The translations under genes and the position numbers were made by a program. This document shows positions 13,222 to 19,003 of a stretch of 23,116 nt of DNA, one piece after another; position 1 is the first letter of the stretch, and every line of letters starts with the position of its first letter. The notes under the pieces were generated by a model. That model made no database searches, was not told the origin of the DNA, and was given only the letters and a program-made list of their open reading frames with translations. The stretch is from a virus, in IMG/VR virus record IMGVR_UViG_3300017763_000212, positions 1 to 23,116 of that record; one strand, written 5' to 3'.

Positions 13222-14366
13222 GACACACTCGCAAATTCATAATCTTCGTTCTGAAGTCCGCCAAGATTTGAAGTTCCATATAACTTGTATAGGGGGGAGT
13301 CTCGACGTATTCTGAAATCTAAGTTAGCAAGGTCAACAAAGTCCGCAGATGTAACTGTGATGACATCAATCATGTCCTCGTATGAATCCATGTTATTGAA
13401 GTTGCCTGATGAGTTAGATCCCATCGCCATTATCTGTGGACCGTTTTGTCGAGAGTCGTTCGCGGCAACATTCATACCATATGCACCCGCACCGTAGATA
13501 ATAGTATTATGTGGTCCGGGCATATAATGATTCGATTGTGAGTCGCCGTCGATTGACGTATTATTAAACCCATCACCACCCACATTTACTATGGTGCAGT
13601 TAGTGGGTCCGGGTATACTTGTTCTATCGTTTGTAGTAGTACAAATATACCCATGTCCATGAACTCTAGTAATTATACAATTCATCATACTACCATTACC
13701 AGAAGTGACTGTATATCCATCTCCGTCACCCCCTGATCCCGAAGTCGAGGGACCGATGACTCGGCAATGGTTGAAGTGGGTGTTTCTAGCATCGACAATT
13801 CTGTCGTAGATATCCCCAACAGATTCAAACACACATGTGTGAAAGTATGTGTTAGAGCAAACCATAACTTCAGCATTAGTGCCTTGACAATTTGCCTTGA
13901 AGTTGCATCCTACCCAACCTTGTGAATCGTTCACTGAAGTAGTCGAATCTACTATTGCACTCTTATTGTAACTTGAATTGGTATTCTCAAAGGACAAACA
14001 CTTATAGAAAGTGTTTTCGTCTTGGGTGATCATTTCTTCATTGGCACTCATGACAAAAAGAGGGTAATCTGTCAAGTCTAATCGAAGTCCTGTTTCGTCA
14101 AACTTAGGACGAAGAATAGTTCCATCCGACTTAGCACCAACCCATTGATTTGGTGTATCAATAGCAGCAGCAGAACCAGTGATTACCAAATTGGTTGTGC
14201 AGGCGTATGTTCCTGTAAGGAAAATAAATCTCTTGTTGGCACGATCAATTCCCTCCATGTCGGTTGACCAATCACCGCTGTCAATTGCCTGTAAAGCATT
14301 TGCAACAGAACTACCGTCCTTGCTTCCTGCTCCTGCGGGTGAAATGAATACGTCAGTTAATGCCAT
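13218..14366 (-). CDS. Right-handed parallel beta-helix protein (tailspike-like)
   Basis: The 382-residue protein begins [27 protein letters not shown], the usual opening of pectate-lyase-fold proteins in which a DVFVSP-like strand is followed by a G-rich, DGSS-type turn. From about residue 120 to 310 it has regularly spaced short strands of the kind FxxCxF, HCRVIG, NCIITRVHGHGY, NCTIVNVGGDGF and NTIIYGAGAYGM, which is the coil pattern of a right-handed beta-helix. The C-terminus LDFRIRRDSPLYKLYGTSNLGG resembles the closing DFRL-x-x-SP-x-x-x-xG motif of such proteins. Several Cys and Asn residues sit at similar positions in successive coils. It may be a spike or receptor-binding protein; catalytic residues for glycan cleavage cannot be assigned. 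The start overlaps the fibre stop (TAATG), and the end overlaps the PAAR start. Confidence 0.8.
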   Translation of the reverse strand: MALTDVFISPAGAGSKDGSSVANALQAIDSGDWSTDMEGIDRANKRFIFLTGTYACTTNLVITGSAAAIDTPNQWVGAKSDGTILRPKFDETGLRLDLTDYPLFVMSANEEMITQDENTFYKCLSFENTNSSYNKSAIVDSTTSVNDSQGWVGCNFKANCQGTNAEVMVCSNTYFHTCVFESVGDIYDRIVDARNTHFNHCRVIGPSTSGSGGDGDGYTVTSGNGSMMNCIITRVHGHGYICTTTNDRTSIPGPTNCTIVNVGGDGFNNTSIDGDSQSNHYMPGPHNTIIYGAGAYGMNVAANDSRQNGPQIMAMGSNSSGNFNNMDSYEDMIDVITVTSADFVDLANLDFRIRRDSPLYKLYGTSNLGGLQNEDYEFASVS

Positions 14367-17300: not shown

Positions 17301-19003
17301 GCGGTAAGAGTTTCTCGTTCTTGAAATCCACCAGTTCCAGAAAGTCCATTAAACGCCAGATAAAATTCTGTATCGTTTAGAGTTGCACCGAAAGGGAAAC
17401 TGGGAACACATTCTGCCTTGCCGTGTACACCTTCATTACGATAAACCTGACCTGTATTCCGAAGTGAGTTCCCAAAATACATGGACCAAATTGTTGTATC
17501 TTCTTTTTTCAGTGCAGTTGCACCAGTTGCACCAGTCGAACCAGTCTTTCCTGTTGCACCTGTGGTTCCTGTGGTTCCGGGAGTTCCAGTGGTTCCTGTG
17601 GTTCCGGGAGTTCCAGTGGTTCCTGTGGTTCCGGGAGTTCCAGTGGTTCCTGCTGCACCGTCAGTGCCACTCACTCCTCTTGGTAGAATAATATTTTTAA
17701 TTTTATAATACCCACTAGGTGTACTCCGATCACCAAACGTATCACCTGCTTCTCTTACATTAGTGATACTTACGGTTGCTGTAAACCCGAATGAATTTGA
17801 GTAAGCAACATTTAGTCCGGGACCAGTCACTGCATCGGTGTCTAGTAACACGCGAGCAAAAATTTGATCAACTCCGAAAGAAGATCCAGCGTTGCTTGGA
17901 GCAGTGATAGAATCTACAGGGATTCTAATTAAATCTAATTGTGTGCCTCGCACCAGAAGAGAACTTTGTGTATCTGCTACTTTATCACCTTGTGCAGCAG
18001 TTCCGGGGAATTGGATAAGATCACCAGAACCAGATGATTGTCCGTTGAAGAAAATTGCAAACTGACCACCTGTACTGATTATATCAGAAACACTGACTCC
18101 ACCAAGACCAGCAATTGCACCGCCTAGTTGTGGTGTGCCGCTTCCAAGATCCCCAGTGACCTGCCACGCAGTTGTATCAAAAGCAGTTAAGGCAGATTGA
18201 CCATCGGATCCATCTGTACCATCAGAACCAGATAGTCCAACGGTTCCTCCTTCTGTAGTTCCTCCGGTTTTATCAATATTAACAATTGATAAGATTGGAA
18301 CACCATCTGCATTTGGTGTAATTGTTACCTCGACACCCTTACCATCGTCACCGACCACTTTATCATCACTGATTGTGGTTACAGTGCCATCGCCAGTAGT
18401 TTGAGTTACGACTAAATTGTCCCCGTCCCGAATAGCAGATATACTGTCACCCTTGACAACACCAAGATTTACTGTTTCGGTTTCTCGATCATCGCCTGCC
18501 GTTGGTTTATCAAGTTCAACAACTAACTCACCATCGACAATGTTAAGTTCAGAAATACCGGCACCGTCTTTGCCATCTTCTCCTTGACGACCTCGCTCAA
18601 ACTCAGTAACTTGAGTTGGTTCTATTCTACCAAAAGAAACTAATTGTGTTTCAGTGTCACCAGCGGTATAACTTTTAGGTTCTACCTTTGCCGGAAGAGG
18701 TTGGGTTTCCGTTAGGTACGCATGGATGTCTTCAAAGTTATTTGTAAGAAGTTCTAGGATCTCTGGCGTTACGTCATCGACCTCACCAAAGATTTCTACA
18801 CCAATTGCATCTTCACCATCTCGAAATTCTTCTAACCGACCATATACCCCTTTTCTTTTTTTCTTTCTTCCCTTTGTAAATCCATAGAACTCAAAGGGTC
18901 TTAACGCTTTGTGTGGTAATGGGGTGTCATGATAAAACAAACGCAGAAAGATTCTACGAATTCTTAAATCTTTAATAATTTGTTGCACTAACTCGTATGC
19001 CAT
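14366..19003 (-). CDS. Large collagen-like modular fibre protein
   Basis: This 1545-residue protein is the largest complete gene here. Residues 1-120 are a distinct N-terminal domain with a basic patch ([14 protein letters not shown]), probably the baseplate-attachment end. Residues about 255-270 have a short Gly-x-y stretch. From residue 271 three related modules of about 170-210 residues follow, starting [10 protein letters not shown] (271), [10 protein letters not shown] (497) and [10 protein letters not shown] (768). Each contains an FNG segment, a DAVxGxG motif and FGFTATV, and ends in an IKN motif before a collagen-like linker (about 440-496, 706-767 and 979-1018) of [10 protein letters not shown] and [10 protein letters not shown] types. 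The C-terminal part has a [13 protein letters not shown] motif typical of phage fibre ends and a beta-rich final domain. Likely a trimeric host-contact fibre bound to the hub or wedge. It starts two bases after the gp5 stop. No exact homologue recognised. Confidence 0.85.
15971..16006 (-). repeat. 18-base tandem repeat, two copies, third collagen-like linker
   Basis: Two perfect adjacent 18-base copies (15971-15988 and 15989-16006) encode GATGTT-type triplets in the third linker of the fibre gene. A third, diverged copy follows. Confidence 0.85.
16683..16720 (-). repeat. 38-base direct repeat, copy B, start of the third module
   Basis: These 38 bases are identical to 17496-17533. They encode the linker end and the following ALKKEDT sequence, and mark a duplicated module boundary in the fibre gene. 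Confidence 0.9.
16735..16851 (-). repeat. 27-base repeats, second collagen-like linker
   Basis: Three perfect copies of a 27-base unit lie at 16735-16761, 16762-16788 (adjacent) and 16825-16851. Between the second and third is a short run of TGETGE-type triplets. They encode GAAGTTGTT-type collagen-like sequence. Confidence 0.9.
17496..17533 (-). repeat. 38-base direct repeat, copy A, start of the second module
   Basis: Identical over 38 bases to 16683-16720, spaced 813 bases (271 codons) away, so the reading frame is preserved. Supports duplication or gene conversion between fibre modules. Confidence 0.9.
17564..17644 (-). repeat. Three perfect 27-base tandem repeats, first collagen-like linker
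   Basis: Copies lie at 17564-17590, 17591-17617 and 17618-17644 with no mismatch, and a partial fourth follows. Each encodes nine residues of the GTPGTTGTT type, i.e. three collagen-like triplets. Loss or gain of a copy would keep the frame. Confidence 0.95.

Follow-up and report, generated by a model that had tools for sequence, protein, structure and literature searches.

The window analysed here, the whole stretch of 23,116 bases of DNA from an IMG/VR virus record, encodes a large protein (1545 amino acids; positions 14366–19003, minus strand, ATG at 19003 and stop at 14366) that is probably an adhesion fibre anchored to the baseplate of a T4-like myovirus, with fixed ends and an exchangeable middle part made of beads and rods. 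The middle part contains three copies of one protein module (the beads), each followed by a collagen-like linker (the putative rods). All coordinates within the fibre gene given below refer to the minus strand.

Genomic setting of the fibre gene

The fibre is encoded among tail and baseplate genes, between gp5 and the gene for a PAAR protein. Its neighbours, all on the same strand, are the tail-tube cap (gp54-like), gp53, a hub tail protein and gp5 with an OB fold; beyond the fibre, also on the same strand, are a DUF5123-like protein, the PAAR protein, an unknown protein, gp25 and gp6, and then the gp7-position wedge protein, gp8 and a long DUF4815 protein that is truncated by the end of the window. 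Judged by these gene assignments, the window is a baseplate operon fragment of a T4-like myovirus. The gp6 protein is at best ~36% identical to those of cultured phages (Methylophilales phage Melnitz and Pelagibacter phage HTVC008M), so the window appears to represent an uncultured T4-like lineage. The fibre protein itself matches tail fibre PHROGs, with the top matches located over the collagen parts.

A protein module in three copies

The modules encompass residues 271–442 (copy 1, m1; 17678–18193), 497–707 (copy 2, m2; 16883–17515) and 768–980 (copy 3, m3; 16064–16702). The translation bears out the residue numbers given in an earlier note on this DNA, and its central claim, that these are three copies of one module, is confirmed. 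When each pair of modules was scored against 1000 shuffles, the highest shuffle score was 73, compared with local alignment scores of 559 for m2 and m3 (121 of 201 residues identical, z 82), 127 for m1 and m2 (39 of 115 identical, 34%, z 14.7) and 113 for m1 and m3 (51 of 151 identical, z 13.5), so that all three pairs are far beyond shuffled sequence. As the note had also proposed, copies 2 and 3 are the closest pair, with 60% identity compared with 31–34% to copy 1; both begin with ALKKEDT, and their similarity extends to the DNA level, where gap-free blocks of 72 nt (85% identity), 251 nt (72%) and 51 nt (76%) share a single spacing of 822 nt. A hold-out HMM trained solely on module copies from three other phages detects all three copies in the window (i-E 1e-80, 3e-16 and 2e-13) and has zero matches in the reversed fibre protein. 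No fourth copy scores above its shuffles in the rest of the fibre protein.

The module copies of the window have no match in Pfam, PHROGs or PDB sequences; the search of PDB sequences with a bead profile was empty at E 5, and no members of the bead family were found in prokaryote genomes. Matches to DUF859 (16 bits, below the cut-off of 28.8) and phrog_372 (E 0.0013) were limited to the module copy of one related phage (L091), and membership in this siphovirus tail protein family was rejected because no profile match exceeded the cut-off. By these profile comparisons, the bead family is undescribed in the libraries searched; as a small domain that could be expressed, the bead would lend itself to binding tests.

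Conserved ends and a mosaic middle in related fibres

A tblastn search of 50,697 GenBank phage records with the whole fibre protein gave no match, and a direct whole-protein scan of viral contigs with the fibre yielded no relatives. The related fibres were reached via gp6 first, and then with module, N-terminal and C-terminal profiles, to give five to seven in all, every one of them from metagenomes. Three contigs (L002, L003 and L004) have the same gene order as the window, with 75% identity in gp6 and 90–97% in gp5; the N-terminal and C-terminal profiles added L087, L091 and L094–L096. The slot between gp5 and PAAR also holds the fibre in L002, L003, L004 and L091, and in L094–L095 it is filled by a fibre with a different N-terminus. 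An additional contig, L089, carries a fibre end identical to that of L004.

The N-terminal region of approximately 140 residues (residues 1–140; 18584–19003) is kept in five of six relatives (L002, L003, L004, L087 and L091), with 77–80% identity to the close ones, and differs in L094–L096. It is the probable site of baseplate attachment, although none of the known baseplate-binding domains matches it. This region includes a basic insert of 22 residues (about residues 36–58; about 18830–18900, minus strand) that is present twice in L002 and as a variant in L087, and is absent in L003, L004 and L091. The next segment, residues 141–252 (18248–18583), consists of small conserved repeats with Gly-rich turns and is 78–84% identical among the window, L002 and L003, and 47–49% identical to L091; in L004, the region past the first small repeat is replaced. 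A short Gly-x-y stretch of six triplets (residues 253–270; 18194–18247) precedes copy 1.

At the other end, linker 3 is followed by a second domain type (residues 1020–1262; 15218–15946) that closes with an 11-residue motif and has relatives in L002, L003, L004 and L091, with only its end found in L094–L096. The third domain type (residues 1263–1425; 14729–15217) is about 80% identical to its counterparts in L091 and L094–L096 and is absent in L002–L004. The C-terminal 120 residues (1426–1545; 14369–14728) form a predicted jelly-roll domain, the probable tip of the fibre, and are conserved in all relatives whose fibre extends to the C-terminus (L002–L004, L091 and L094–L096). The AlphaFold2 model of this domain has a pLDDT of 82 and a pTM of 0.78. 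Among its structural matches is the C-terminal part of the tail fibre of Agrobacterium phage 7-7-1 (PDB 9rkv; Z 9.5, rmsd 3.0 over 103 residues), likewise a jelly-roll; however, the identity is 11%, the Z score is only modestly above that of unrelated jelly-rolls (8.4), and the match provides no evidence of a shared receptor. The BFVD matches include predicted collagen-repeat phage proteins; matches to picornavirus capsid proteins and PHM were set aside as general jelly-roll similarity.

Between the ends, the fibre is a mosaic in which the module type, the module number and the linker length all differ between relatives. By the HMM, the module is present in three copies in the window, in one copy each in L003, L091 and L004, and in none in L002 and L094–L096 (the L087 fibre, which is cut at 509 residues, was left out of the count), in agreement with the expectation of the earlier note that the module number would vary across related phages. 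L003 and L091 share a second bead (37% identity to each other). A profile-profile comparison of the module with the other beads, namely this second bead, those of L002 and L004 and the residue 1263 domain, gave no support for distant kinship. The orthologous fibre of L004 (L004 1488–7352) is strikingly long, with 1954 residues, 657 of these in eleven Gly-x-y stretches. The fibres of L094 and L095 (7435–9360) and L096 (2–1873) have the C-terminus in common with the window and contain many short ‘VNTFNGATGxV’ repeats instead of collagen stretches.

Proposed working of the fibre

By analogy with known collagen-like fibres, the fibre is most likely a homotrimer. The conserved N-terminal region would bind the baseplate, stiff collagen triple-helix rods would alternate with globular beads, and the conserved jelly-roll domain would lie at the far tip. 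The homologous beads, three in number, would probably serve as accessory contact or trimer-registering domains that add contacts with the host surface along the fibre. The bead section can be envisaged as an exchangeable cassette, with beads and rods gained, lost or swapped via the linkers, where near-identical, repetitive Gly-x-y DNA would supply recombination or slippage joints, and with both ends fixed. Because the structure model of the bead has low confidence (pLDDT 40) and there is no match to a known domain, a binding role can be ascribed to the beads only provisionally.

The beads might instead be inert spacers, or trimer-locking knobs that register the collagen rods, with the C-terminal domain alone responsible for binding, a serious contender with a somewhat less than even chance of being correct. 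This would be consistent with the retention of the C-terminal domain in all relatives that reach the C-terminus, with the dispensability of the bead in L002, and with the need of collagen rods for trimerisation domains that register the chains (PMC3368898). A pure spacer, however, need not diverge to 60% identity between neighbours or yield to unrelated domains, and the comparable modules of streptococcal phages are predicted carbohydrate-binding modules (PMC9437275). A bolder version, namely that the bead represents an undescribed family of phage surface-binding domains, with the number and order of beads set by recombination between phages of this group through collagen-coding repeats, is tentative and somewhat doubtful. 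We favour, with fair confidence, the adhesion fibre with a variable bead-and-rod middle and a presumed glycan or receptor contact, in which the beads would make accessory contacts or register the trimer.

History of the module copies

The earlier note attributed the three copies to two rounds of duplication; such a history within the fibre gene is not well supported by the related fibres: copy 1 is orthologous to modules elsewhere, and the site of copies 2 and 3 holds an unrelated module in other phages. Specifically, m1 corresponds by position to the only module copy in L003 (82% identity) and in L091 (57%). In the module tree, which comprises six rows only and includes one long branch, m1 groups with these two copies, and m2 and m3 form a separate branch with full support. 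The best matching segment shared with L003 stops at residue 456, inside linker 1, and the one shared with L091 starts at residue 1009, inside linker 3; between these two points, L003 and L091 contain an unrelated bead where the window contains m2, a linker and m3. With an unrelated module at the m2/m3 site and the breakpoints inside linkers, it is no less probable that a block was imported than that the copies arose by duplication. The simplest reading would be that a block was replaced, with the joints in the repetitive linker DNA.

The alternative, in-place history posits that an ancestral single module was duplicated in the fibre gene and its daughter was duplicated again, with the linkers carried along. 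The 60% identity of m2 and m3, their shared start, the fixed DNA spacing and the fully supported branch are all compatible with such a scenario, as is the location of copy 1 in the ancestral position, the same as in L003 and L091. We nevertheless consider it rather unlikely. Copy 1 is much nearer to the L003 and L091 copies than to m2 and m3, so the split between m1 and m2 predates the split of the m1 modules of the three phages; with the other phages having a single copy, the in-place history then requires losses, and the matching place in L003 and L091 holds the unrelated module. Furthermore, the m2–m3 divergence (dS = 1.23) is not recent, being as old as that of many genes shared by the window and L003 (0.46–1.6); an attempt to date the split by dS was abandoned, given that the reference genes span 0.26 to >2. 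The duplication that gave rise to m2 and m3 may still have been a tandem one, whether here or in a donor; no phages with m2/m3-type beads were found in the search.

Collagen-like linkers and the reach of the fibre

A Gly-x-y linker comes after every module copy, as the earlier note had described: linker 1 (residues 443–496; 17516–17677) consists of 18 triplets, linker 2 (residues 708–767; 16703–16882) of 20, and linker 3 (residues 981–1019; 15947–16063) of 13. The Pfam Collagen domain (PF01391) is detected in the fibre with E 5e-15 and a score of 55.4 bits (cut-off 27.2), in three stretches, the best of which is 708–766. The triplet periodicity is strict and unbroken over 54, 60 and 39 residues in linkers 1–3, respectively. 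Because the linkers are Thr-rich and contain few prolines, the stability of a triple helix is not assured; nevertheless, it is improbable that the Gly-x-y stretches adopt another Gly-Thr-rich fold or are flexible linkers, as the abundance of GTT/GAT triplets and the scarcity of prolines might suggest, given the uninterrupted triplets, the Pfam score above the cut-off and the sequence matches to collagen chains of solved structures and to BclA. At the DNA level, 3.4 perfect copies of a 27-nt unit lie in tandem in linker 1 (17562–17652), which suggests recent slippage in the linker, and linker 2 contains a 63-nt repeat.

The rise of collagen is 0.286 nm per residue. Multiplying the Gly-x-y residues by this value, on the assumption of a triple helix, yields estimated rod lengths of 49 nm in sum for the window, 33 nm for L003, 20 nm for L091, 188 nm for L004, 39 nm for L002 and 0 for L094. 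The total of Gly-x-y residues does not track the module count: there are 171 such residues with three modules in the window and 657 with a single module in L004, and among the other fibres, 138 with none and 69 with one, the overall range being 0–657. The proposal that reach is tuned by module copy number is therefore weak; with linker length independent of module count, reach follows linker length and would be dominated by the rods rather than the beads.

Comparison with other modular fibres

The architecture of beads and collagen rods is already known from E. coli prophage fibres and streptococcal phage adhesins. EPclA, from prophages of E. coli O157, is trimeric; its stalk is a triple helix, its ends are globular, and within its family the collagen lengths vary by whole triplets (PMC3368898). 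Like the window fibre, EPclA–EPclD of EHEC prophages combine collagen domains with globular fibre domains, which either flank the collagen parts or alternate with them (PMC3368898). The globular parts, however, have no sequence relation to those of the window fibre, which, unlike EPclA–EPclD, contains three homologous beads and belongs to a T4-like baseplate operon; PfN (PF08400), PfC (PF06820), Pf2 (PF03406) and coiled-coil regions were not found in the window fibre, where PF01391 alone is detected at E up to 0.1. The Tal proteins of Streptococcus thermophilus phages are ‘LEGO-like’ in that similar modules, varying in number, form chains together with collagen-like linkers (PMC9437275). Tal, however, is a siphovirus tail-tip protein with modules that are structure-predicted CBMs, whereas the window bead has only the low-confidence model and no Pfam family. 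A similar setting is that of pelagimyophages and cyanomyophages, in which the baseplate operons encode collagen-repeat receptor-binding candidates; as in the window, the structural operon of T4-like marine phages encodes proteins in which collagen repeats and binding domains occur (PMC7029224). The candidates are given there as a domain list only (PMC7029224). The window fibre has no tblastn match among the phage records searched, and its gp6 is about 36% identical to that of the nearest cultured phages.

Domain mosaicism is well documented for receptor-binding proteins (PMC10684548), and the window fibre is a clear yet fairly ordinary case of phages rebuilding host-gripping fibres from spare parts. 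The general view of phage fibres as modular stays unchanged. What is added is a natural series of 0, 1, 1, 1 and 3 copies with the ends mostly conserved, in an uncultured T4-like group, and the separation of bead number from rod length, which were joined in the earlier note and here vary independently.

Other features of the baseplate operon

The gp6 protein (9742–11727, minus strand) carries a Ser/Thr-rich C-terminal tail, SSTTSSSNSSSTSNSSSGGGG, at residues 600–661; its alignments to L003 and L004 stop at residue 602. At residues 800–842, the gp7-position wedge protein (7017–9722, minus strand) has two calcium-binding loops resembling a type I dockerin (Pfam E 5.7e-6, which passes the cut-off), and this pair is kept in L002, L003 and L091. 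No cohesin was detected among the window proteins scanned. The occurrence of a dockerin in a phage baseplate protein looks unusual, and nothing directly on point was found in the literature. The gene downstream of the fibre (13218–14366, minus strand) encodes a 382-amino-acid protein with a weak DUF5123-like match that is 48–61% identical in the close relatives, less conserved than the flanking PAAR and gp5 proteins. This gene accompanies the fibre in L094–L096 as well, and its product is possibly a second adhesin or spike.
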